From: Clostridia bacterium
Lineage (GTDB): Bacteria > Bacillota > Clostridia > Oscillospirales > Acutalibacteraceae
Assembly: GCA_017521425.1 (NCBI GenBank)
Contig: JAFXCQ010000033.1
Span: 1 to 64,000, forward strand
Length of the DNA: 64,000 nt
Direction: 5' to 3'
How positions within the stretch are numbered: the stretch's first letter is position 1; each line of letters opens with the position of its first letter. The notes under the pieces are model-generated. The model did not search any database. It was not told the origin of the DNA and saw nothing but the letters and a program-made list of their open reading frames with translations. Both the position numbers and the translations under genes were made by a program. This document shows, piece after piece, positions 10,984-41,457 of the stretch.

Positions 10984-11020
10984 AAAAAATGACACCCGAA
11001 AAATTCGGGTGTCATTTTTT
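10984..11020. terminator. Bidirectional terminator between the phosphoesterase and aro operon
   Basis: A perfect 17-bp stem (10984-11000 with 11004-11020) with a 3-base loop and A/T tails on both sides. It terminates the plus-strand phosphoesterase and the minus-strand aro operon; the DAHP synthase stop codon overlaps its edge. Confidence 0.9.
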
Positions 11021-12048
11021 TATAAGCTTTCTGCAATATCGTAAATAAGTCTTTCTGTTTTTTCCCAACCAAGACAAGGGTCTGTGATTGATTTACCATA
11101 GATGTTTTCACCGATTTTCTGTGCACCATCTTCAATATAGCTTTCTATCATAAGACCTTTGACAAGTTTTTTGATATCATTATTATGATTGATGCTATAA
11201 AGAATATCCTTTGAAATTCTTATTTGCTCAAGATATTTTTTACCGGAGTTTGCGTGGTTTACATCTATGATAGCTGAAGGATTCGTAAGTCCTGAAGCAG
11301 CATATAAATCGCTTAACCTCTGTAAATCTTCATAGTGGTAATTTGAAATTGAGTGACCATCTCTGTCAACAAATCCACGCATAATTGCGTGTGCATAAGG
11401 GTTACCATCGCTTGTTACTTCCCAACCGCGATAAATAAATGTGTGGCTATGTTGTGCGGCAGTAATTGCATTCATCATAATTGATAAATCACCGCTTGTC
11501 GGATTTTTCATACCAACCGGTACTTCAAGACCACTTGCAGCAAGTCTGTGTTGTTGGTTTTCAACACTTCTCGCACCAATTGCAACATAAGAGAGAATAT
11601 CAGAAAGATAACGATAATTGTCAGGGTAAAGCATTTCATCAGCACAAGAAAATCCTGTTTCTTTTAAAGCAGACATATGAATATCACGGATTGCAACAAT
11701 ACCTTCATACATATCAGGTTCTTTGTCAGGGTTGGGCTGGTGTACCATCCCCTTGTAGCCATCGCCTGTTGTTCTCGGTTTGTTTGTATAAATTCTTGGT
11801 ACAATAAAAATTTTATCCTGTACCTTTTCCTGCACCTTACGGAGACGATGTATGTAATCTAAAACTGCATCCTTATAGTCTGCAGAGCAAGGACCGATAA
11901 CAAGCAAAAATTTATCGGACTCACCAGAAAAAATCTTTTTGATTTCTGCATCATTTCTTGCTTTTTGTTCTGTCATTTCTTTTGTTAAAGGGAATCTCTC
12001 TTTAACCTCTTTCGGAATTGGTAATTTTCCTTTGAAATTCATACTCAT
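11020..12048 (-). CDS. aroF: 3-deoxy-7-phosphoheptulonate (DAHP) synthase, type I AroFGH class
   Basis: A 342-residue class I-alpha DAHP synthase, condensing phosphoenolpyruvate with erythrose-4-phosphate to enter the shikimate pathway. Visible motifs include LLVIGPCSADYKDA, the substrate-binding KPRTTGDGYKGMV, ARSVENQQHR and GMKNPTSGD. The metal ligands fit CxD at SCADEMLYPDNYR and DVNHANSGKK. It is the last gene of the aromatic operon, though it catalyses the first step. Its ATG overlaps the aroA stop (ATGA), implying translational coupling. No extra chorismate-mutase or ACT domain is present, so any feedback control acts on the barrel itself or through the attenuator upstream of the operon. 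Confidence 0.95.
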   Translation of the reverse strand: MSMNFKGKLPIPKEVKERFPLTKEMTEQKARNDAEIKKIFSGESDKFLLVIGPCSADYKDAVLDYIHRLRKVQEKVQDKIFIVPRIYTNKPRTTGDGYKGMVHQPNPDKEPDMYEGIVAIRDIHMSALKETGFSCADEMLYPDNYRYLSDILSYVAIGARSVENQQHRLAASGLEVPVGMKNPTSGDLSIMMNAITAAQHSHTFIYRGWEVTSDGNPYAHAIMRGFVDRDGHSISNYHYEDLQRLSDLYAASGLTNPSAIIDVNHANSGKKYLEQIRISKDILYSINHNNDIKKLVKGLMIESYIEDGAQKIGENIYGKSITDPCLGWEKTERLIYDIAESL

Positions 12049-13268
12049 TTTAAAACACTTCCATTTTTAAAGATTTTTATACCAAGTTGCTCGCAATCTT
12101 TAAAAAATAACGGGTAACTTTTATTAACACATTCTGCATTTTCGATTTTGCCACCAAATACACTTGAAATAACTGCAAGTGACATTGCAATTCTGTGGTC
12201 GTTATTTCCACAAAGAATTTCATCTGGTGGTGTTAAATCGGATTTTTTTATTATAATTTCATTCTCGAGAACAGTAATATCAGCAGAGAATTTTGAAAGC
12301 TCTTTTTTCATTACTTCCCCACGGTCGCTCTCTTTGATTTTCAAACGACTTGTTCCTTTTAACATAGCACCATTAAGCATCGAAGCCAAAGTCATTAAAA
12401 TTGGTGCTAAGTCGGGACAATCGGTTATATCTAATGTTGGTGAACCTTGTTTTAAAAGTTCAAAATATTCTTCATATATTTTGTCGCCCTGTCTACTGTT
12501 TTTATTAAGACCTGTAACCTTAACACTACCGCCGATTAAATTAAACGCATCTAAAAATGCTGCGTTTGACCAGTCACCTTCACAATAAAGATTGGTTGGT
12601 TTAAATTTCTGGTTACCTTCAATTTTAAAAGTTCTTTCGTCAGGTCTTTGTATATTAACACCAAACTCATTAAGAATTTCTAATGTTAAATCAATATAAG
12701 GCGAGCTTTGTAAATCGGTAGTAAGCCTAATTTCACTATCTTCATTTAATAGTGGCAAGGTAAATAAAAGCCCTGTTAAAAACTGACTGCTTATATCACC
12801 TTTAAATTTGAACAAACCACCTTTTAAATCACCGCCGACAGTTATTTTTTCATTTTCTCGATTTATAAAGCAATTTTTATCTGGTAAAATATCCTCATAA
12901 ACTGTTTGCGGTCTTTCTAAAAGTCTTTTGCTACCAGTAAATTCGATATTATTACCAAAAAGTAATGAAACCGGAATTAGAAATCGTAAGGTGCTACCAC
13001 TTTCATTTGCAAAAAGCTTAATTTTTTTAAATTTATCTTTCTGCTTTATACCTTTTATTTTTACACTATCTTCGTAAAAAGTAAATTCTGCACCTAACTG
13101 TTTTAAACATTCAACCGTTGCGGTAATATCCTCTGAATCAGCAATATTTTTTATTACTGTTTCTCCGTCACAAAGTGCGGCGCCTATTAAAGCTCGGTGC
13201 ATATAACTTTTTGAGCCTCTTGCTTTTATTTCGCCATTAGCAGTGCTTTTTAAAACCTCAACTACCAT
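12045..13268 (-). CDS. aroA: 3-phosphoshikimate 1-carboxyvinyltransferase (EPSP synthase)
   Basis: A 407-residue enzyme joining shikimate-3-phosphate and phosphoenolpyruvate to make EPSP. It carries the N-terminal KSYMHRALIGAAL loop (K-S-x-x-R), NESGSTLRFLIP, SQFLTGLLF, and the C-terminal IKESDRGE and NDHRIAMSLAV motifs. The start abuts the aroQ stop codon with no gap. The equivalent of the glyphosate-contact region reads NESGSTLRF rather than the NAGT form, as in class II-like enzymes, so reduced glyphosate sensitivity is possible but unproven. Confidence 0.95.
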   Translation of the reverse strand: MVVEVLKSTANGEIKARGSKSYMHRALIGAALCDGETVIKNIADSEDITATVECLKQLGAEFTFYEDSVKIKGIKQKDKFKKIKLFANESGSTLRFLIPVSLLFGNNIEFTGSKRLLERPQTVYEDILPDKNCFINRENEKITVGGDLKGGLFKFKGDISSQFLTGLLFTLPLLNEDSEIRLTTDLQSSPYIDLTLEILNEFGVNIQRPDERTFKIEGNQKFKPTNLYCEGDWSNAAFLDAFNLIGGSVKVTGLNKNSRQGDKIYEEYFELLKQGSPTLDITDCPDLAPILMTLASMLNGAMLKGTSRLKIKESDRGEVMKKELSKFSADITVLENEIIIKKSDLTPPDEILCGNNDHRIAMSLAVISSVFGGKIENAECVNKSYPLFFKDCEQLGIKIFKNGSVLK

Positions 13269-13700
13269 TTAACGCACCTTCTCAAGCAGAGCATCTATTG
13301 CTTCTAAATAACCATCAGTACCGTGACCTGTAATAGTTTTAAAAGCATATTCACGAACAAAGCTTATTTGTCTGAAGCTTTCGCGCTCTGAAACCTCTGA
13401 AATATGCACTTCTACTGTCGGTATACCTACCGATTTCAAAGCATCTAAAATAGCAACACTTGTGTGGGTGTAGGCTGCGGGGTTAATTACAATACCATCA
13501 AAGTTTTTATATGCTTTCTGTATTTCATCTACAATATCACCCTCGTGGTTTGACTGAAAGCACTTTACCTCTACCCAATTTTCCTTTGCATATTTCGCAA
13601 TTTTCTCAACTAAATTTATGTATGTTTCTTGACCATAAATTTCAGGCTCACGAATACCTAACATATTTATATTTGGTCCGTTCACTACAAGAATTTTCAT
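13269..13700 (-). CDS. aroQ: Type II 3-dehydroquinate dehydratase
   Basis: A 143-residue dodecameric-type dehydroquinase making 3-dehydroshikimate. It has LVVNGPNINMLGIREPEIYG with the catalytic Tyr, NHEGDIVDEIQ, INPAAYTHTSVAI and VEVHISEVSERESFR with the catalytic His. The first four bases overlap the aroE-aroK stop. Confidence 0.96.
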   Translation of the reverse strand: MKILVVNGPNINMLGIREPEIYGQETYINLVEKIAKYAKENWVEVKCFQSNHEGDIVDEIQKAYKNFDGIVINPAAYTHTSVAILDALKSVGIPTVEVHISEVSERESFRQISFVREYAFKTITGHGTDGYLEAIDALLEKVR

Positions 13701-14932
13701 TCTGTCACCTTCATAATCTGATTAACTGTTTCTTCTATACTACCACTTGCATCAATTACAAAATCTGCATATTCTCTGTAAAGATTATAGCGCTCATTGT
13801 AACGCTTTTCTAAAGCTTCACGATTTGAAGAAAGTGGTCTGTCAGAAGTAGTTATAAGCTTTTCTAATGGTCTATCCAAAAAGAAAACCTTACCATTTTC
13901 TTTTAATAAATCTATATTCTTTTTATTAAGAATAACACCGCCACCAGTTGAAATAACTGAAGAATTATTTTTACTGAGTGTAAATATTGCTTCTGTTTCT
14001 TTATTTCTGAAATATTCTTCTCCTCTGTTTTTGAATATTTCTGGAATTGTTGTTTTTTCAGTTACTTCTATAAGTATGTCACTATCAAAAAATTCACGAT
14101 TTAATTTTTCTGCAACAATAGTACCAACTGTTGTTTTGCCACAGGATGGCATACCAATTAAAACAATATTCTCTTTACTTTTAAAAAGTGAATTATAAAC
14201 ACTTTCAATATCTTTTCTGCTTACAGTCTTTTCTATAAATCTTTCTACCGCTGCAGCCGCTTGTGCTACGAGCATATAAAGACCACCAACTGCTTTAATA
14301 TCTAAGCTTAAAGCATCAAAAACAAGCTTTGAGCGAAGTGGATTATATACTGCATCTACTACACCTGAAAGGTTTTTAAACCTTTTAACATCTACCGCCG
14401 AATTATAAATATTGGGATACATACCAACTGGTGTTGTATTTATAATAATATCTATATTATCACTTATATTATAAAGCTCATCGTATGAAATAAAATCGTC
14501 CTGGGCATTTCTTGACACTTTATAAACTGCCCTTGCGCCAAGAGAATTTACAACCGCATTTGCAGTTTTAGATGTACCACCACTACCTAAAATTGCAACC
14601 GTTTTATTTTTTATTTCTATATCTGCTTTTTCAATAAGCATTTTCATACCGTAAAAATCGGTATTGTATCCATATAACACACCATTTTTATTTACTATTG
14701 TATTAACTGCACCTATTGTCTTTGCTTCATCTGAAATAAAATCAAGATACGGAATTACCCTTTCTTTATAAGGAATAGTGACATTTATCGCTTTAAAGTC
14801 ACTTTGTTTCATAAATTCAGCAATTCCCTCTTCAGGTATTTCGCAAAGTTCATAGGTGTAATCGGTTAAAGCATTGTGTATTTCCTTTGAAAAGCTATGC
14901 CCTAACTTTTTACCGATACAACCATACTCCAT
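13697..14932 (-). CDS. aroE-aroK: Shikimate dehydrogenase-shikimate kinase fusion (AroE-AroK)
   Basis: One 411-residue frame carries two consecutive shikimate-pathway steps. Residues 1-245 are shikimate dehydrogenase: shikimate-binding GHSFS (11-15), catalytic Lys in NVTIPYK (50-56), NTD (90-92), the NADP loop GSGGTSKTA (116-124) and the C-terminal GGLYMLVAQA. Residues 255-411 are shikimate kinase: P-loop GMPSCGKTT (260-268), FDSD (282-285), FRNKE (308-312), STGGGV (328-333) and the lid SDRPL. All key residues are present, so both activities are expected. Reducing dehydroshikimate and then phosphorylating shikimate in one protein could channel the intermediate. It overlaps both neighbours by a few bases. 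Fusions of pathway steps are common in fungi (AROM) but this two-domain order is less usual. Confidence 0.94.
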   Translation of the reverse strand: MEYGCIGKKLGHSFSKEIHNALTDYTYELCEIPEEGIAEFMKQSDFKAINVTIPYKERVIPYLDFISDEAKTIGAVNTIVNKNGVLYGYNTDFYGMKMLIEKADIEIKNKTVAILGSGGTSKTANAVVNSLGARAVYKVSRNAQDDFISYDELYNISDNIDIIINTTPVGMYPNIYNSAVDVKRFKNLSGVVDAVYNPLRSKLVFDALSLDIKAVGGLYMLVAQAAAAVERFIEKTVSRKDIESVYNSLFKSKENIVLIGMPSCGKTTVGTIVAEKLNREFFDSDILIEVTEKTTIPEIFKNRGEEYFRNKETEAIFTLSKNNSSVISTGGGVILNKKNIDLLKENGKVFFLDRPLEKLITTSDRPLSSNREALEKRYNERYNLYREYADFVIDASGSIEETVNQIMKVTE

Positions 14933-16020
14933 TATTTTTCACCGAGCCAATCTGTACCGAATTTCTGTGAAAGTAAGTCACAAAGTGCTATTGCGGTTAT
15001 GCTATCTACAACAACTCTTGCTCTGTGAACAATGCAAGGGTCGTGTCTGCCGTGGATTTCTGTTTTAATATTTTCATTTGTAATGAAATTCACTGTATCC
15101 TGCTCTTTGCTAATTGTAGGTGTCGGCTTAACCGCACATTTGAATATAACTGGCATTCCATTTGTTATACCACCGTTTATACCACCGTTATTATTTGTTT
15201 TAGTTTTAATAACACCATTGTCTACAAAAAAGGCATCATTCATCTGACTACCAAGCATATCGCTACACTCAAAGCCACAACCAAATTCAACACCCTTAAT
15301 TGCAGGAATAGAGAAAAGCGCATGAGAAATTACACTTTCGAGAGAATCAAACCACGGTTCGCCTACACCCACCGGAATACCTGTAACAACTGTTTCGAGT
15401 ACCCCACCAACACTATCTTTCTCTTTTGCTACATTTTCTATGTTCTTTATCATTTCTTCGCCCTTTTTATTGTTTAAAACAGCAAAGATTTTTGAATTAA
15501 GATTTTTAATTTCGTTTTCGTAATCTGTAAAGGAGTTATCTTCAACACCAGCGCATTTTTTAATGTGAGTACCGATTAAGATACCTTTATTCTTTAAAGT
15601 TTCAATTGCAATAGCACCACCTGCAACAATGCCAGCGGTTATTCTCCCGCTGAAATGACCTCCACCACGATAATCTTCATTACCTTTAAATTTCATAAAG
15701 CCTGTAAAATCTGCGTGCCCCGGTCGTGCTACCCCGTAATTGTAATCCTTTGATTTTGTATTTTCATTAGGGATTGTGATACAAATTGGTGTACCTGTTG
15801 TTTTACCATTATAAACACCACTTTGTATTGTGAATTTATCAGTTTCTTGTCTGGGGGTAGAAATTTTACCGTAAGGTCTTCTTAAATCAAGCTGATGACA
15901 GATAAATTCTTCGCTTACTTCAACTCCTGATGGTAAACCATCAATAACCACACCAACAGAATTACCGTGACTTTCGCCAAAAACAGTAATTGAAACATTG
16001 TTGCCGAATGTGTTTTTCAT
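14932..16020 (-). CDS. aroC: Chorismate synthase
   Basis: A 362-residue FMN-dependent enzyme converting EPSP to chorismate, the last common step. Signatures seen are GESHGNSVGVVIDGLPSG, RPGHADFTGFMKF, YRGGGHFSGRITAG and HDPCIVHRARVV. Its stop shares a base with the aroE-aroK start, and its own start overlaps the aroB stop by four bases. Confidence 0.96.
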   Translation of the reverse strand: MKNTFGNNVSITVFGESHGNSVGVVIDGLPSGVEVSEEFICHQLDLRRPYGKISTPRQETDKFTIQSGVYNGKTTGTPICITIPNENTKSKDYNYGVARPGHADFTGFMKFKGNEDYRGGGHFSGRITAGIVAGGAIAIETLKNKGILIGTHIKKCAGVEDNSFTDYENEIKNLNSKIFAVLNNKKGEEMIKNIENVAKEKDSVGGVLETVVTGIPVGVGEPWFDSLESVISHALFSIPAIKGVEFGCGFECSDMLGSQMNDAFFVDNGVIKTKTNNNGGINGGITNGMPVIFKCAVKPTPTISKEQDTVNFITNENIKTEIHGRHDPCIVHRARVVVDSITAIALCDLLSQKFGTDWLGEK

Positions 16021-17027
16021 ATTTCTTCCCCTTTCAATATATTTTCTATTTTTTGATATTTCATAAACTCAAATCTGAAGCTACCAACACTATCTACTAC
16101 CACAACATTTACACCGTCACCTACAGATTTTTTATCGTGGCGTAAAACTTCAAAAACTTTTTCACAATCAAAATCAAATTTTATTGGTAAATTATTTTTA
16201 GAGAGTAAATTCTTTATTTGTTCTTTCGCTTTACCTGTTGACATAAACATCATACCGAGTGCAACACATTCACCGTGATAAAGTGTGTCAAGCCCTGTTA
16301 CGCTCTCAATTGCGTGACCAACTGTATGACCAAAATTAAGCACCTTACGAAGTCCTGTTTCTTTTTCGTCTTCTTCGACTACTGCTTTTTTTATAAGAAG
16401 TGATTTTTCGATTACTACATCAATGATATCTTTTGCATCATTGTTTTCTAAAAGCTCGAATAAATCACTATCAGATGTAGCCGACATTTTAATAACCTCT
16501 GCAAGACCGTTATTAAACTGCCGGTCAGTTAATGTATCTAACACATCAGGGTCAATAATTACCGCTTTGGGTTGATAAAATGCTCCAACTAAATTTTTGT
16601 AGCCTGCAAAATCAATTGCGGTTTTACCACCGATTGAAGAATCAACCTGAGAAAGAAGTGTTGTGGGTATATTGTAAAAATCAATACCACGCATATAGGT
16701 AGCGGCAGTAAAGCCTGCCATATCACCAGTAACGCCACCGCCAACCGCAATAACACAGTCTTTACGGTCAAACTTATTTTCTGCAAGAGTTTTTAAAAGT
16801 GCTGAATAAGTTTCAAAATTCTTGCTTTTCTCACCTTGTGGGAACGTATAAACAATACTGTTTTCAATCTGGTTTTTAACTATTTCTACATATATTCCCG
16901 GAACTCCGCTATCGGTTACAATTAAAGCCTTACCCTTGATATCTAAAATTTTATTAACTTCATTAAGTGCATTTCTTTTAAGAGTGATATTATAACTACC
17001 ACCCGATGTTTTAACATTTATAATCAT
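16017..17027 (-). CDS. aroB: 3-dehydroquinate synthase
   Basis: A 336-residue NAD- and metal-dependent enzyme that cyclises DAHP to 3-dehydroquinate. It has the NAD-binding GGGVTGDMAGF, the PTTLLSQVDSSIGGKTAID block, GLAEVIKM and the metal ligands in NFGHTVGHAIE and YHGECVALGM. Seven bases separate it from pheA. Confidence 0.96.
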   Translation of the reverse strand: MIINVKTSGGSYNITLKRNALNEVNKILDIKGKALIVTDSGVPGIYVEIVKNQIENSIVYTFPQGEKSKNFETYSALLKTLAENKFDRKDCVIAVGGGVTGDMAGFTAATYMRGIDFYNIPTTLLSQVDSSIGGKTAIDFAGYKNLVGAFYQPKAVIIDPDVLDTLTDRQFNNGLAEVIKMSATSDSDLFELLENNDAKDIIDVVIEKSLLIKKAVVEEDEKETGLRKVLNFGHTVGHAIESVTGLDTLYHGECVALGMMFMSTGKAKEQIKNLLSKNNLPIKFDFDCEKVFEVLRHDKKSVGDGVNVVVVDSVGSFRFEFMKYQKIENILKGEEI

Positions 17028-17034
17028 AAAATAA

Positions 17035-18135
17035 TCAGATTCTCATTTCTTTACTGAATTTACCAACAAGTCTTACATTGGTACACACATCTGAAAGCGA
17101 TGTAATTAGTTCGTCCTCAGCTTCTTTTGTGAGTTTACCTTCACCTTCAACAAAGAAGTAATAATTCCATATAACATCTTTTGAAGGTCGGCTTTTAAGT
17201 GTTTTCAAGTTATAGCCAGACTCACCAAAAACAGAAATTGCTTTACCAAGCGAACCTGCCTCATCTTTAACTGTAAACAAGAGTATAAAGTTTGTGTCAC
17301 TCTTTGGTGAAACATCACGTTGAACTCTTGAAAATACTGCAAAACGAGTTGTATTTGTACTGTTTTTATTAATTTTTCTGTCGAGCAATTTAAGACCGTA
17401 CTCGTCACCCGCTTCAATACTACAAATAACCGCCTGGGTTTTGTCATTCATTTCAAATACTTTTTTAGCGGCAACTGCAGTATTAACTTCTTCAACAGTT
17501 TCAAAACCATGTTCGTTTATATATTCTGCACATTGACCTAAAGCTTGTTTATGACTTATTACAGTTTTTATTTCTTTAATATCGGCATCTTTTGTACCAA
17601 AAAGATTTTGCTCAACTGGTAAATCAAAAATTCCGTTGATATAAAGTGAACCGAAATATGTTAAGTCCATAACCTGACCAACATCACCTTCGTAACTGTT
17701 TTCAATAGGTAAAACTGCACAGTCACATTCACCATTTTCAACTGCCTTATATGCCGCTTTGAAGTTTTTGTAAGAAACTCTTTCAGCATAAGGGAAAATT
17801 CTTTTTACCGCAATATCTGCAAAAGCACCTTTTACTCCCGAAAATGCAACTTTCATACCATCTAAAAGTCTTCTCTGATATGCTTTTGAAAGTTCCATTG
17901 TATTGTTCATAAAACCAATATAATAAGTTTTAAGGTCTTCATTTTCTATGTAATCAAGCATTTTTTCAACTAATGCTTTTTCACGGTCTTTGTCTTCAAC
18001 AGGAAGTCCATTTTTCTTTTTGTAATCAGCAACCATTTTTGCGGCATTCATTCGTTTTTCAAATAATACTGCAATCTGCTTGTCAACTTCATTTATAATC
18101 TCTCTTGCCTGTTGTAATTCGTTTTTGTTGCTCAT
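17035..18135 (-). CDS. pheA: Bifunctional chorismate mutase / prephenate dehydratase
   Basis: A 366-residue P-protein. Residues 1-90 are an AroQ-type chorismate mutase (INEVDKQIAVLFEKRMNAA). Residues ~95-275 are prephenate dehydratase with the substrate motif NTTRFAVF, and ~285-360 an ACT regulatory domain. It makes phenylpyruvate from chorismate. The ACT domain normally carries GAL and ESRP motifs for phenylalanine feedback. Here they read GSL and KSRP, so allosteric inhibition may be weaker; that is inference. Its stop overlaps the aroB region by none, and its start shares a base with the aminotransferase stop. Confidence 0.94.
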   Translation of the reverse strand: MSNKNELQQAREIINEVDKQIAVLFEKRMNAAKMVADYKKKNGLPVEDKDREKALVEKMLDYIENEDLKTYYIGFMNNTMELSKAYQRRLLDGMKVAFSGVKGAFADIAVKRIFPYAERVSYKNFKAAYKAVENGECDCAVLPIENSYEGDVGQVMDLTYFGSLYINGIFDLPVEQNLFGTKDADIKEIKTVISHKQALGQCAEYINEHGFETVEEVNTAVAAKKVFEMNDKTQAVICSIEAGDEYGLKLLDRKINKNSTNTTRFAVFSRVQRDVSPKSDTNFILLFTVKDEAGSLGKAISVFGESGYNLKTLKSRPSKDVIWNYYFFVEGEGKLTKEAEDELITSLSDVCTNVRLVGKFSKEMRI

Positions 18136-19319
18136 TATTTATATTCCTCTATAAGTTTCTTAAATGCCGGTAATGAATTTTTAATTTGTTCAGGTGAAAC
18201 ACAGTAAGAAATTCTTACAAAGCCTTTAACACCGAAATCATCACTTGGAACTAATAATAATTCGTATTTTTTTGCAGTTTCACAGAATTTATTTGCATCT
18301 TCTTCAGGTGATTTTACAAACATATAAAACGCACCATCAGGTTTTATTACTGTGTAACCATACTCTGTAAGTGCATCGTAAAGCACTTTTCTGTTTTTTT
18401 CATAAATGGAAACATCTGCGGTTTTGTCAAGACATTTTGCAATAGTGTACTGCATAAGACTTGGTGCACAAACATAACCTAATGCTCTACCCGCACCGCA
18501 TACTGCAGCGAAAACATCACTACAATCCTTTAATTCTGGTGAAACGAAAATATAACCGATTCTTTCACCAGGTAATGAAAGCGCTTTACTGTACGAATAA
18601 CAAACAATTGTATTCTTGTAATATTTTGGGATATATGGAACTTCTTCGCCAGTGAAAACAAGCTCTCTGTATGGTTCATCTGCTAAAAGATAAATATCTG
18701 TGCCATATTCATTTTGTTTGCTATTTAAAAGCTCAGCGAGTTTTATAATATCACATTCAGGAATAATTACACCTGAAGGATTATTTGGTGAATTTACAAT
18801 AATTGCTTTCGTTTTATTTGTTATTGCTTTTTTTAATTCGCAGAAATCAATCTGTAAATCTTCAGTTTTACAAGGCACTACCTTTAAAGTTGCACCCGCT
18901 TGCTCTGCAAACACTCTGTATTCAGGAAAAAATGGTGCTAAAGCAATAACCTCATCACCTGAATTTACAAGCGCATTTAATGATATTGTAAGTGAAGCGG
19001 CTGCACCGCAAGTCATATAAATAAGGTTAGGTGTAGCTTCAACATTAAATTTATTTTTTATGTAGGCTGCAATTTCAGTTCTTACACCAATATCACCAGG
19101 GCCAGAAGTGTAACCATGAAGTACCTCTGCAGGTACAGTTTCTAAAAATTCTTTCATAATTTCTGTAACTTCTTTCGGTGCAGGAACACTCGGGTTACCT
19201 AAACTGAAATCAAATACATTTTCTGCTCCAATTTCTGCTTTTCTTTTTTTTCCGTACTCAAAAATCTCTCTGATTACTGAGCTTTTTTTGCCAAGACCCA
19301 TCATTTTTTCTGAAATCAT
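18135..19319 (-). CDS. PLP-dependent class I aminotransferase (probable aromatic/aspartate)
   Basis: About 394 residues, fold-type I. Signatures include FSLGNPSVPAPKEV, VNSPNNPSGVI, LLADEPYRELVF and the PLP-lysine segment YSYSKALSLPGERIGY. As first gene of the aromatic operon it most likely transaminates phenylpyruvate and/or hydroxyphenylpyruvate to Phe and Tyr. The family also contains aspartate and alanine transaminases, so specificity is inferred from context. I chose the ATG at 19319, eight bases from AGGAG; the ATG at 19325 is only two bases from it. It is the first gene past the attenuator. Confidence 0.85.
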   Translation of the reverse strand: MISEKMMGLGKKSSVIREIFEYGKKRKAEIGAENVFDFSLGNPSVPAPKEVTEIMKEFLETVPAEVLHGYTSGPGDIGVRTEIAAYIKNKFNVEATPNLIYMTCGAAASLTISLNALVNSGDEVIALAPFFPEYRVFAEQAGATLKVVPCKTEDLQIDFCELKKAITNKTKAIIVNSPNNPSGVIIPECDIIKLAELLNSKQNEYGTDIYLLADEPYRELVFTGEEVPYIPKYYKNTIVCYSYSKALSLPGERIGYIFVSPELKDCSDVFAAVCGAGRALGYVCAPSLMQYTIAKCLDKTADVSIYEKNRKVLYDALTEYGYTVIKPDGAFYMFVKSPEEDANKFCETAKKYELLLVPSDDFGVKGFVRISYCVSPEQIKNSLPAFKKLIEEYK

Positions 19320-19340
19320 ATTCATATCTCCTAAAAATTA

Positions 19341-19400
19341 TTTATAAAATAAAAAGTCTGCACACCTACTATGAAAAAACACACAGCAGAAATGCAGACT
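19341..19400 (-). terminator. Attenuator terminator of the aromatic operon
   Basis: On the minus strand AGTCTGCA (19393-19400) pairs with TGCAGACT (19355-19362). An inner CTGCT/AGTAG stem extends the helix with a short internal loop, and TTTTTATTTT follows. It lies between the leader peptide and the first structural gene. Its 5' arm can alternatively pair with GCGGATTG inside the leader-peptide coding region (plus-strand 19444-19451): eight pairs, two of them G-U, forming an antiterminator. Confidence 0.88.
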
Positions 19401-19427
19401 GACTATATACTCGAAAAGCAAAAGTTT

Positions 19428-19493
19428 TTACTCAGCACATAGACAATCCGCGTTTATAAAGTAAAAAAATCGATAAGAAAAATTACGAATCAT
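19428..19493 (-). CDS. Phe/Tyr-rich attenuation leader peptide (21 aa)
   Basis: A short frame too small for normal gene calling: ATG at 19491-19493, TAA at 19428-19430. It has a perfect AGGAGGT ribosome site seven bases upstream (19501-19507) and a perfect promoter above that. The peptide contains the run NFSYRFFYFI, with four Phe and two Tyr codons within residues 5-12, and ends in ADCLCAE. It encodes a sensor rather than a functional protein. Ribosomes stalling on Phe or Tyr codons should leave 19444-19451 free to form the antiterminator; ribosomes reaching the stop should cover it and let the terminator fold. The downstream operon makes phenylalanine and chorismate, matching the codons sensed. 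Confidence 0.9.
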   Translation of the reverse strand: MIRNFSYRFFYFINADCLCAE

Positions 19494-19523
19494 CTATATT
19501 ACCTCCTAAAAAATTATGTAAGA

Positions 19524-19552
19524 ATTATATACCTACAAAAAAAGTTTGTCAA
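19524..19552 (-). promoter_or_regulatory. Perfect sigma-A promoter of the aromatic amino-acid operon
   Basis: Minus strand TTGACA (19547-19552), 17 bases, TATAAT (19524-19529). It begins within ten bases of the Hpt gene's stop codon. Transcription would start near 19517, giving a leader RNA of about 200 bases before the aminotransferase. Confidence 0.92.
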
Positions 19553-19560
19553 GTACTTTA

Positions 19561-19902
19561 TTATATAAATTGACTAAAATATTCCTTTTGCTTTAAAAGT
19601 TCATAGTATTTAACCATCACGCCATCTAAACTACCAATTCTTAAAGGCTCAACTATATCGCATACAGTTTCAAAAAGTGGGGTTAAACCCATATTGCCTA
19701 TTATACCCTTCAATGTATGAGCATATTCAAATGCATCGCTTATTCTACGTTCTTCTAAAGCAAGACCTAATTTACCGAATGCTTCGTCATTTAAAAGCTC
19801 GCCATAAAATTGCTCATATAATTCTTCATCATCAAGGAAACGAGCTAACGCTCCCTCAACATCACATTCAGCTTCCTTAAGCTTTACGAATAACTCCTTC
19901 AT
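19561..19902 (-). CDS. Stand-alone histidine phosphotransfer (Hpt) domain protein
   Basis: A 113-residue, mostly helical and acidic protein. AHTLKGIIGNMGL (His62) is the canonical Hpt phosphorylation motif H-x-L-K-G-x-x-x-N-x-G. Hpt proteins relay phosphoryl groups between hybrid kinases and response regulators. No kinase or regulator lies in the window, so it is an orphan. It is the last gene of a four-gene set (HAD hydrolase, lipoprotein, membrane protein, Hpt), and no terminator separates it from the aromatic promoter. Read-through would meet the attenuator. Confidence 0.8.
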   Translation of the reverse strand: MKELFVKLKEAECDVEGALARFLDDEELYEQFYGELLNDEAFGKLGLALEERRISDAFEYAHTLKGIIGNMGLTPLFETVCDIVEPLRIGSLDGVMVKYYELLKQKEYFSQFI

Positions 19903-19919: not shown

Positions 19920-20252
19920 TTATTTTTCGTGTTTTTCAACTATTTCTGCAAAACCGTAAATTAAAGCAGAGATAAGTCTTGCTATAATCACAAAAATTGC
20001 TACTACAGAAATAATCGGAACTGCAAGTAATGCCACAATTTGTACTCCGTAGTATGCACTCAAAACGAATGCACCTACTACAACACCAATTACAATAAAG
20101 AACAAGTTAATTACAAACATCGCAAGGGAAAGTTTTTTTAATGTAGCAGAGCAATTTTTAAAGAATTTAAAAGATTCTGCTTCTTCTTTTAAAGACATTT
20201 GTTTTTCTGTTGTTACAGGAGCTTCTTCAATAATTTTAATTTCTTCTGACAT
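19920..20252 (-). CDS. Small membrane protein, two predicted TM helices
   Basis: About 110 residues from the ATG at 20252, chosen for GAGGTAAGAAT just upstream. An acidic N-terminal tail (SEEIKIIEEAPVTTEKQ) precedes two hydrophobic helices, roughly residues 45-70 and 75-100, and a short charged end. I recognise no family. It is spaced tightly between the lipoprotein and the Hpt gene and may act with them at the membrane. Confidence 0.65.
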   Translation of the reverse strand: MSEEIKIIEEAPVTTEKQMSLKEEAESFKFFKNCSATLKKLSLAMFVINLFFIVIGVVVGAFVLSAYYGVQIVALLAVPIISVVAIFVIIARLISALIYGFAEIVEKHEK

Positions 20253-20263
20253 ATTCTTACCTC

Positions 20264-21016
20264 TTAATACCATTCATTTTCATAAAGGTCTGGTGAATAA
20301 TTAACACCATTGCCAGTACCAGAACCGCTACCAGATGGAGTTGTTATTTCTGGTTGTGGTGTAATAATATTTGGTGCAGTAGTATCTTTTACTGTATTAT
20401 TGTTGTTCTTTGTAGTTTCAGGTTCTCTTGAAGCAGTTGAATCTGAGCTTGTTGAACCAAGAATTGTATTTGTAACTGTTTCCGGCAATTCATTTTTAGT
20501 TGCTACCTTTTTAAGCTCGCCATTAACCCATTCGTAAATCACATAAGATGTATTATCTCCATTTTTCTCATTAACAACAACCTGCTTATTTACTGAATCT
20601 AAAGACATAGATGTAAAGCCTGAAAGTGTTTCATTATAAACGAACTCACCTTTTGTACTGTCGAAAATCCAGCAGCAATAATTAAACACACCATTGTTTG
20701 CAGAAATTGTAAGACAGATGTCGTCATTACCATCAAAGTTCATATCCTGAAAAGCAATATGATTTTGTGCAAAGCCTAAAACGAAAACATCCATTTTATT
20801 TGCAGGATAAGTAAGCTCCTGAACAAAAACATCGTCCTTATAAACCTTTAATGAAGCAGATGTAACCTCTGCAGAATAGCCATAACGGATAGCATCTGTT
20901 GTAATAATATTGTCAGTTGTTGGTTCTTCGTTTTTGTTATCTTTACAAGCAGTAAAGCATAACAACACCGAAGTAACAGTAAATAATGAGACAAATAATG
21001 TAATAATTTTTTTCAT
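20264..21016 (-). CDS. Lipoprotein with FG-GAP/VCBS-like repeat sequence
   Basis: A 250-residue protein with a signal peptide and lipobox CFTAC, followed by a Thr/Asn-rich stretch. The central part (DMNFDGNDDICLTIS) resembles a calcium-binding VCBS/FG-GAP blade, as in XAC2610-related domains. The C-terminus has a second low-complexity linker (SGSGSGTGNG) and ends in YENEWY. It is probably anchored outside the membrane; its function is unknown. Fifteen bases separate it from the HAD gene. Confidence 0.7.
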   Translation of the reverse strand: MKKIITLFVSLFTVTSVLLCFTACKDNKNEEPTTDNIITTDAIRYGYSAEVTSASLKVYKDDVFVQELTYPANKMDVFVLGFAQNHIAFQDMNFDGNDDICLTISANNGVFNYCCWIFDSTKGEFVYNETLSGFTSMSLDSVNKQVVVNEKNGDNTSYVIYEWVNGELKKVATKNELPETVTNTILGSTSSDSTASREPETTKNNNNTVKDTTAPNIITPQPEITTPSGSGSGTGNGVNYSPDLYENEWY

Positions 21017-40180: not shown

Positions 40181-41416
40181 TTAACCAATTTTTTCACCAC
40201 AGGCTAAAAAGTTCAATATTCTTTTTAACGATGTACTGAAAGTAAGTTTTTTTACTTCATTTTTTGCTAAAAGTGGAAATTCGGCAACACATTCGCCTGC
40301 TAATGTGAATTTCACACTACCTAATTTCTGATTTTTGTCTACTGGTGACTGAACATTTTCTGTTAATGTAACAGTCTGCTCTAATTTTTCTGCATCGCCT
40401 TTTTTCAGTAAAATTGTTGTGTCACCTTTGATATAAGGCATAACAGATTTTGCTTCACCACCGATAACCTCAACATCCTTAAAGGCTATTTCATCTATTT
40501 TTAGTTCGACAACTGTAAAATTTGCAAAACCGTAATTAAGCATTGTTTTTGCAGTTTCAAAGCGTTCATTACTGTTGCCACTACCCATTACAACTGCAAC
40601 GAGGTGGAGATTGACGCGTTTTGCAGATGCAGAAACACAACACCCCGCTTTATTTGTTGTACCTGTTTTTATACCAGTAGTACCACTATAAAAACGGACG
40701 AGTTTATTTGTGTTTACAAGCTCTGTTTCACCGTTTCTCAAGGAATCCATCCAGACCGTTGTATAGTCAGTAATTAAATCGTGCTTCATAAGTTCTACTG
40801 ACATAATACCAATATCTCTTGCGGTAGTTAAATGTGTGTCAGTTGTATCATCAAGACCTGTTGCGTTTTCAAAATGGGTGTTATTCATTCCCAGCTCTTT
40901 TGCTCTTTCATTCATTAAAGAGATAAATGCTTCTTCACTACCTGAAATATATTCACCTAAAAGTGTGGCGGCATCATTAGCACTACCAATAGCGGTAGCT
41001 TTTAATAAATCATTAACTGTCATTTCTTCGCCTGGTTCAAGCCAGATTTGTGAACCGCCTTTTTTTGATGCATTTTCACTGCACACGACAACATCGGTAA
41101 GTGAAATTTTCCCCTCCTGAATTGCCTCAACAACAAGAAGCATTGTCATTATTTTTGTAACTGATGCGGGAAATAGTTTTTCATCGGCATTATATTCTAA
41201 CAGCACCTTACCTGTTGTAACATCCATTAAAATAGCTGATTTTGCCTTGATTTCTATTGGTAATTTTGGTTTCGTAGCATTTGTTTTTGAAGTGGTTGTT
41301 GCACTGAAAACAGGTGTAACATCTTCATTTTCTTTTGTCACGGTTTTTGCATTTGCGGTTATTATGAGTTGTAATATAAAAATTGTTGATAAAAATAAAG
41401 AAAAGCATTTTTTCAT
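40181..41416 (-). CDS. D-alanyl-D-alanine carboxypeptidase (DacF-like, PBP5 class)
   Basis: About 411 residues with an N-terminal signal peptide (FLSTIFILQLIITANA). The penicillin-binding triad is present: SxxK in FPASVTKIMTM, SxN in IGSANDAATL and KTG in GIKTGTTNKAG. The PBP5-type C-terminal beta domain follows. It trims peptidoglycan stem peptides at the membrane and resembles sporulation DacF in length. The ATG at 41416 is eight bases from AAAGGAG and lies in a hairpin with a near-copy of itself upstream. Confidence 0.9.
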   Translation of the reverse strand: MKKCFSLFLSTIFILQLIITANAKTVTKENEDVTPVFSATTTSKTNATKPKLPIEIKAKSAILMDVTTGKVLLEYNADEKLFPASVTKIMTMLLVVEAIQEGKISLTDVVVCSENASKKGGSQIWLEPGEEMTVNDLLKATAIGSANDAATLLGEYISGSEEAFISLMNERAKELGMNNTHFENATGLDDTTDTHLTTARDIGIMSVELMKHDLITDYTTVWMDSLRNGETELVNTNKLVRFYSGTTGIKTGTTNKAGCCVSASAKRVNLHLVAVVMGSGNSNERFETAKTMLNYGFANFTVVELKIDEIAFKDVEVIGGEAKSVMPYIKGDTTILLKKGDAEKLEQTVTLTENVQSPVDKNQKLGSVKFTLAGECVAEFPLLAKNEVKKLTFSTSLKRILNFLACGEKIG

Positions 41417-41457
41417 AAAGTTCACTCCTTTAGGTAAACTATATGAAAAATGCTTTT
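41402..41457 (-). promoter_or_regulatory. Inverted repeat sequestering the dacF-like start codon
   Basis: In the mRNA, AAAAGCATTTTTCAT (41443-41457) can pair with ATGAAAAAATGCTTTT (41401-41416), with one bulge. The AAAGGAG site sits in the 26-base loop and the AUG in the stem. Confidence 0.45.

Follow-up and report, generated by a model that had tools for sequence, protein, structure and literature searches.

The aminotransferase-pheA-aro operon on the reverse strand of the window (the whole stretch of 64,000 nucleotides of Clostridia DNA analysed here) appears to be preceded by a ribosome-mediated transcription attenuator, a reading to which comparative sequence analysis and RNA modelling lead us to assign a probability of about 0.9. 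It is directly supported by the anatomy of the leader, its conservation, the covariation of both helices, the gene association and the computed position of the switch. A Phe/Tyr attenuator of this type had been claimed from the letters of the DNA by an earlier, sequence-only reading, and that claim is supported by conserved leaders, covarying stems and an aromatic gene next at 43 of 43 loci.

In the mechanism that we propose, RNA polymerase would start just 3' of the promoter and a trailing ribosome would translate the leader peptide. With charged tRNA-Phe or tRNA-Tyr scarce, the ribosome would stall at codons 5-11 and leave the downstream codons GCGGATTGTCTATGTGC free to pair with GTATATAGTCAGTCTGC, a pairing that would keep AGTCTGC out of the terminator and permit read-through into the aminotransferase-pheA-aro operon. 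With both tRNAs charged, the ribosome would reach the stop codon (19430) and cover the 5' arm of the antiterminator, upon which AGTCTGCA would pair with TGCAGACT and transcription would end near 19345. Stalling on uncharged tRNA, termination in the cell, a kinetic advantage of the antiterminator and the sensing of charged tRNA-Phe and tRNA-Tyr are the parts of this scheme that we infer.

Anatomy of the leader and its operon

Read directly on the reverse strand, a sigma-A type promoter with a consensus score of 12/12 (19524..19552; TTGACA at 19552-19547, a 17-nt spacer and TATAAT at 19529-19524) is followed by the Shine-Dalgarno sequence AGGAGGT (19501..19507), 7 nt before the ATG at 19493, and by the 21-codon leader peptide MIRNFSYRFFYFINADCLCAE (19428..19493; stop codon 19430-19428), which has Phe at codons 5, 9, 10 and 12 and Tyr at codons 7 and 11. 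A G-rich stretch resembling a Shine-Dalgarno sequence occupies the equivalent place in relatives (MAFFT alignment of 19 leaders). The final codons of the peptide contain the 5' arm of an antiterminator hairpin (strands 2:3; 19394..19451, reverse strand), identified by isolated folding, covariation and RNAalifold, which forms 24 pairs at -25.5 kcal/mol when 19451-19394 is folded alone. An intrinsic terminator hairpin (strands 3:4; 19355..19400, reverse strand), identified by folding and by covariation in 19 leaders, has the same energy of -25.5 kcal/mol when 19400-19355 is folded alone, and the two hairpins are mutually exclusive because one strand is common to both. The terminator arms AGTCTGCA (19400-19393) and TGCAGACT (19362-19355) and the T-rich tail (19345..19355), whose run begins at 19355 and which marks the expected 3' end of the attenuated RNA, were likewise read directly on this strand. 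The fold of 19450-19341 has a z-score of -6.58, and 0 of 200 shuffles were as low.

The perfect promoter, the AGGAGGT site, the 21-codon Phe/Tyr peptide and the terminator with its T tail that the sequence-only reading had listed are all confirmed by direct reading, and the eight-pair antiterminator that it had placed between 19451-19444 and 19401-19394 is present with correct coordinates, the helix being longer (24 pairs) in the isolated fold. On the sequence, the leader thus offers an ORF with a Shine-Dalgarno sequence and codons for the end product of the operon, and, by folding and covariation, two mutually exclusive hairpins of which the second is an intrinsic terminator, as expected of an attenuator. 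Promoter-like sites at the 9/12 level are not rare in the region (2 found, 3.9 expected from shuffles); a promoter is kept upstream of the leaders, with a best match of at least 10/12 in 51 of 55, compared with 4.4% of shuffled controls. A simple terminator scan of the region returned 0 sites, probably because the stem is imperfect.

The operon consists of eight genes, all on the reverse strand, that touch, overlap or lie at most 10 bases apart. The leading gene encodes a class I/II aminotransferase (18135..19325; Pfam PF00155), whose start, by comparison with relatives, is more likely at 19319 (MISEK, as in relatives) than at 19325. It is followed by pheA, encoding chorismate mutase, prephenate dehydratase and ACT domains (17035..18135; PF01817, PF00800, PF01842), aroB for 3-dehydroquinate synthase (16017..17027; PF01761), aroC for chorismate synthase (14932..16020; PF01264), an aroE-aroK fusion of shikimate dehydrogenase and shikimate kinase (13697..14932; PF08501, PF01202), aroQ for type II dehydroquinase (13269..13700; PF01220), aroA for EPSP synthase (12045..13268; PF00275) and the gene for a type I DAHP synthase (11020..12048; PF00793). 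The sequence-only reading had spoken of a nine-activity aro operon, a count to be corrected to ten shikimate/phenylalanine activities in eight genes on the Pfam matches. A tyrA gene (prephenate dehydrogenase match) lies elsewhere in the same genome, on a 5.3-kb contig, with a short 5' region and, by eye, its own promoter-like sequence ahead; upstream of it no leader was seen by eye and neither Rfam nor the leader models gave a match.

On the other side of the leader, the promoter is immediately preceded by the end of a small reverse-strand ORF (19561-19902), which matches the Hpt domain weakly (E 1e-5). At three related loci (L006, L007 and L015) the upstream stretch resembles, in place of this Hpt-like ORF, the end of the window ORF 19920-20273 (...YGFAEIVEK), for which no Pfam match was found.

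Conservation, covariation and distribution

In an alignment of 19 leaders that MAFFT built without structure, 90.2% of the cells in the 15-pair antiterminator core are paired, compared with 24-42% when slid, and the core has a covariation score of 0.337, compared with 0.203 +/- 0.019 for shuffled and 0.046-0.117 for slid controls. Seven of its pairs are changed on both sides, a number reached by 2 of 500 shuffles and also by one slid control (-3), so that this tally does not decide the matter by itself. For the terminator, 94.1% of cells in the same alignment are paired and both sides have changed in 5 of its 11 pairs (4 of 500 shuffles); further pair types are no more numerous than in shuffles (485 of 500). 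RNAalifold, unaided, predicted the antiterminator and, with it, the terminator stem in a shifted form. A larger alignment of 55 leaders was fitted to a covariance model, three reverse-strand partial matches (E 0.0018-0.0087) having been excluded by a stricter E-value. Across the antiterminator and the upper terminator stem in these 55 leaders, 18 of 20 pairs, and 118 cells, are changed on both sides (shuffled controls, 12 pairs and 48 cells; slid controls, at most 13 pairs and 21-47 cells); the base of the terminator stem was counted in the 19 leaders only.

The peptides of the 55 aligned leaders are 19-27 codons long and carry 4-11 F/Y codons; Phe and Tyr codons are both present in every one, Trp in none, and Phe and Tyr together make up 32% of the residues after the first. 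Between the start codon and the antiterminator arm, 355 F/Y codons fall in frame, compared with 104 and 108 in the other two frames and with 177 +/- 8 (maximum 196) in 300 dinucleotide shuffles. The sequence-only reading had looked to orthologous leaders for conserved Phe/Tyr codons and covarying stems, and both are found, the antiterminator covarying in the 19 and the 55 leaders and the terminator stem in the 19. The distance from start to arm leaves the same remainder modulo 3 in 52 of the 55 leaders, and the ORF ends 19-37 nt past the start of the antiterminator arm in all of them. Because two of the three frame exceptions (L077 and L089) change their C-terminal residues (RAAR, not GCP) yet keep the RNA arm, the sequences suggest that these residues are there for the RNA arm. 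The likeness of peptides among the hits is partly by construction, since F/Y content carries a small weight in the choice of ORF for the 55 leaders, and the sequence of the codon region enters the scores of the leader models as well.

When relatives were searched for the operon's first gene, 146 of 148 gave some match, mostly distant paralogues, and 30 loci were returned. At 19 of these 30 aminotransferase orthologue loci there is a leader ORF with a Phe/Tyr run; the 11 others lack a leader, 0 Rfam matches were found within about 1.5 kb on either side of them, and some of their genomes carry the leader at another place, for example G103 and G128 before pheA. A first covariance model, built from the 19 leaders and blind to neighbouring genes, matched at E 0.001 or better in at least 18 of 250 family genomes and at least 28 of 345 order genomes, in one place each. 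The two lists share three genomes and give 43 loci, 8 of them training sequences and 35 new. An aromatic gene is next, within about 285 nt, at all 43, namely the aminotransferase gene at 23, PheA at 9 and DAHP synthase at 11 (15, 9 and 11, respectively, among the 35 new loci). A second model (R2), built from the 55 leaders, matched at least 8 of 391 class genomes, five of them outside the window's order, where 4 of the 5 matches precede PheA or DAHP synthase. Across the phylum, at least 2 of 299 genomes gave a match, and these two belong to the same order as the window. Where a search covered more than 40 genomes, few candidates per genome are scored and the tally is a lower bound; at the search sensitivity used, the element looks confined to part of the Clostridia.

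The fifth match outside the order (L104, G854:C61:46573-46743; E 5e-4) is a leader MKRRFFYYYYYYFSPAVECCAANI of the same architecture, whose peptide MKRRFFYYYYYYF... lies upstream of an ABC_sub_bind protein (Pfam) and a permease-like frame (by reading); perhaps it marks a Phe/Tyr-controlled aromatic transporter. Within the genus of the window, the model search placed the element in 15 of 22 genomes, in one of which (G004) it stands ahead of pheA. Another genus member (L005/L048, G009:C3) has about 285 bases between terminator and aminotransferase gene, far above the other listed members. Carriers include metagenome assemblies named 'Oscillospiraceae bacterium' and 'uncultured Clostridia bacterium', the Oscillospiraceae being Clostridia of the Bacillota (NCBI). 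Of 13 further aminotransferase loci listed, two (L034 and L045) have the leader, and the other 11 (L035-L044 and L046) gave no match to the leader models. Aminotransferase relatives of 53-55% identity, without leader, occur in Ruminobacter, Succinivibrionaceae, Anaerovibrio and a Selenomonadaceae assembly (L036, L044, L039-L043); gene transfer is a guess. When weaker copies of the leader were sought within the window, the only one was 41373-41432, at E 0.57.

Computed switch position and competing explanations

To represent the ribosome, the RNA was masked as far as a fixed number of nucleotides beyond the A-site codon, and the pairing of the shared strand was computed. The main setting ended the transcript ahead of the terminator's 3' arm and used a shadow of 12 nt; shadows of 9 and 15 nt were also run. 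In the window, predicted pairing with the antiterminator arm is 1.0 with codons 4-10 in the A site and falls to 0.71 at Tyr11, 0.25 at Phe12 and 0.01 at codon 13. It rises again to 0.32 and 0.25 for codons 14 and 15, and from codon 16 onwards, the stop included, it is 0.0. These values count the arm only; if any upstream partner is counted, the shared strand pairs at 0.5-0.6 at codons 14-15, partly outside the arm. The 9-nt shadow moves the edge one codon later and the 15-nt shadow one codon earlier, in both cases within FFYF, so that the switch point predicted for the window falls inside the FFYF codons. With a shadow of 9 or 12 nt, every one of the 55 leaders has at least one permissive F/Y codon; with 15 nt, 54 of 55 do. 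The stop codon lies near or inside the antiterminator 5' arm in all 55, so that a finishing ribosome would block the arm, and with the ribosome there, pairing with the arm is below 0.5 in 55 of 55 (12-nt shadow, transcript cut before the 3' arm). Counting any upstream partner, about 12 of the 55 stay at or above 0.5 (43 or 44 fall below, the 43 having been counted on values rounded first).

With the full terminator transcribed, equilibrium folding of the window puts the terminator ahead wherever the ribosome stands, a stall at Phe9 giving 0.78 for the terminator and 0.20 for the antiterminator. Across the 55 full-length leaders, the antiterminator leads in 33 when the ribosome stalls on the first F/Y codon in the main run, in 20 when it stalls in the middle and in 1 when it stalls on the last; with the ribosome at the stop, the terminator leads in all 55. 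In these calculations a stall frees the antiterminator as long as the 3' arm is absent, and at full length it does so neither in the window nor, at the first F/Y codon, in 22 of the 55. Since equilibrium favours the terminator in the window, the switch there would need co-transcriptional kinetics; on this model the antiterminator must form first and persist until the polymerase is past the T tract. For Listeria Rli60, too, the terminator is reported to be stabler than the antiterminator (-17.1 vs -10.3 kcal/mol) (PMC5864092).

The advantage of the terminator at full-length equilibrium in the window would also suit a simple intrinsic terminator that is read through in part without regulation, with an ORF that senses nothing. 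A covarying competing helix and in-frame F/Y codons just ahead would, however, be purposeless in a fixed terminator, and we give this explanation hardly any credence. The same codons bear on control of the operon by a T-box or another tRNA- or metabolite-binding riboswitch, with the short ORF incidental. T-boxes are in use in this genome, where one of eight matches lies upstream of the Phe-tRNA synthetase alpha gene, but a scan of the window against Rfam gave nothing at gathering score, and the F/Y codons, which are kept in frame well above shuffles, are something that a riboswitch would not need, making such control most improbable. A known riboswitch or T-box identity was rejected after a search of all 4227 Rfam families, none of which matched the window or the leader at gathering score. 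At E values up to 10, the leader returned only the microRNA family mir-3012 (E 1.2). The T-box leader model RF00230 did not match either; as a positive control, it recovered all five T-box loci tried from this genome (5 of 5).

A nascent-peptide arrest switch, in which the peptide itself would sense a small molecule and stall the ribosome, in place of codon starvation, could account for the recurrence of the residues after the F/Y run (DCLC, GCP) in many leaders. These residues are, however, encoded by the covarying RNA arm, which L077 and L089 keep while reading RAAR, and the order of Phe and Tyr and the N-terminal residues vary among leaders; we consider arrest of this kind very unlikely.

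Relation to known leaders and to T-boxes

Leader-peptide switches such as the ribosome-mediated attenuator favoured here are best known from E. coli, whose pheL-pheA attenuator we take to be the Rfam family Phe_leader (RF01859); the covariance model of RF01859 matches neither the window nor the leader. Both systems have a short Phe-rich leader ORF, competing 2:3 and 3:4 hairpins and pheA downstream, and in the same masking calculation the switch of pheL also falls inside its Phe run. Unlike the Clostridia leaders, pheL has Phe but no Tyr, and it precedes pheA alone, tyrA and aroF lying on the other strand. With the full terminator, pheL holds the antiterminator at about 0.8 for stalls at codons 6-10, whereas the window reaches 0.20 (Phe9). 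With no ribosome and the terminator incomplete, 51 of the 55 leaders show upstream pairing of the shared strand at 0.5 or above (1.00 in the window), in contrast to 0.12-0.24 for pheL with its leader almost free (A-site codons 2-3); a protector pairing would explain the low value of pheL. If the no-ribosome pairing is real, the computed prediction is that an untranslated Clostridia leader would be ON by default. It is a tentative proposal, at somewhat less than even odds, that the Clostridia leaders form a family with joint Phe and Tyr sensing, no protector pairing and an untranslated leader that is ON by default. In the same proposal, translation to the stop codon would switch the shikimate pathway off, and the element would keep its place at the head of the operon while the first gene changes between aminotransferase, pheA and DAHP synthase, one genome having it before an ABC transporter.

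Upstream of Acholeplasma aroF, the uORFC-13-1 motif, for which a Phe-containing uORF has been proposed, is reported only for Acholeplasma and environmental sequences, with 24 representatives and at least one Phe codon (PMC8632094). It resembles the present leaders in placing a Phe uORF beside a terminator, ahead of a DAHP-synthase gene, and is set apart from them by their occurrence in Clostridia, their 4-11 F/Y codons and the covariation of both helices. Two further reports describe leader-peptide attenuation in Firmicutes for Listeria Rli60 and the S. aureus ilv-leu operon, where the principle is the same but the amino acids are branched-chain and the organisms Bacilli (PMC5864092, PMC5794164). 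Naville and Gautheret (2010) report a His leader peptide of Bacillus, at hisZ and hisS*, that likewise stands in place of a T-box in Firmicutes and differs in its His codons, its hisS-family genes and its occurrence in bacilli (PMC2965389). A survey of Actinobacteria reports no conserved RNA structure for phenylalanine operons there (PMC1262725).

Leader-peptide attenuation of a full aro operon in Firmicutes had been called notable in the sequence-only reading, a claim that needs tempering. The principle is not new, ilv and his cases in Firmicutes having been published and an Acholeplasma aroF uORF proposed; as far as our searches show, what is new is the family with both Phe and Tyr, the extent to which it occurs among Clostridia, and the presence of a Phe-tRNA synthetase T-box beside it in one genome. 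A search by title and abstract opening gave no Phe/Tyr leader in Clostridia, which is weak evidence of absence, subscription papers being mostly outside that search. In the searches made, a family of Phe and Tyr leaders in Clostridia, ahead of a whole shikimate operon and with no Rfam match, is undescribed.

T-boxes were present in at least 59 of 60 relatives searched, and of the 8 matches in the genome of the window the five loci examined were all confirmed by Rfam. The genes next to them encode a Phe-tRNA synthetase class II core (Pfam), with a pheT-like frame behind it (by reading), a Thr/Ala-type synthetase with a TGS domain (Pfam; thrS by reading), a LeuA_dimer/HMGL protein and a cupin/AMP-binding protein (Pfam). 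At one locus (L099, G000:C4:11600-15000), the T-box stands before an AMP-binding gene (phenylacetate-CoA-ligase-like by reading), which is followed by an ACT-pair protein. In the T-box of the Phe-tRNA synthetase (L095, G000:C4:25300-28800), the aligned specifier region reads UUC, a Phe codon. With a UUC T-box ahead of the synthetase gene and a leader peptide ahead of the pheA-aro operon, one cell probably has two ways of sensing Phe shortage: directly from the tRNA in the case of the synthetase, and by way of the ribosome in the case of the pathway.

A classical sensor like that of E. coli, backed by covariation, thus appears to govern the entire aromatic pathway in Clostridia that also bear T-boxes. 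The covariance model can be used to annotate the Phe/Tyr leader elsewhere, and the system allows testing whether joint sensing of Phe and Tyr sets the supply of chorismate while ignoring Trp.
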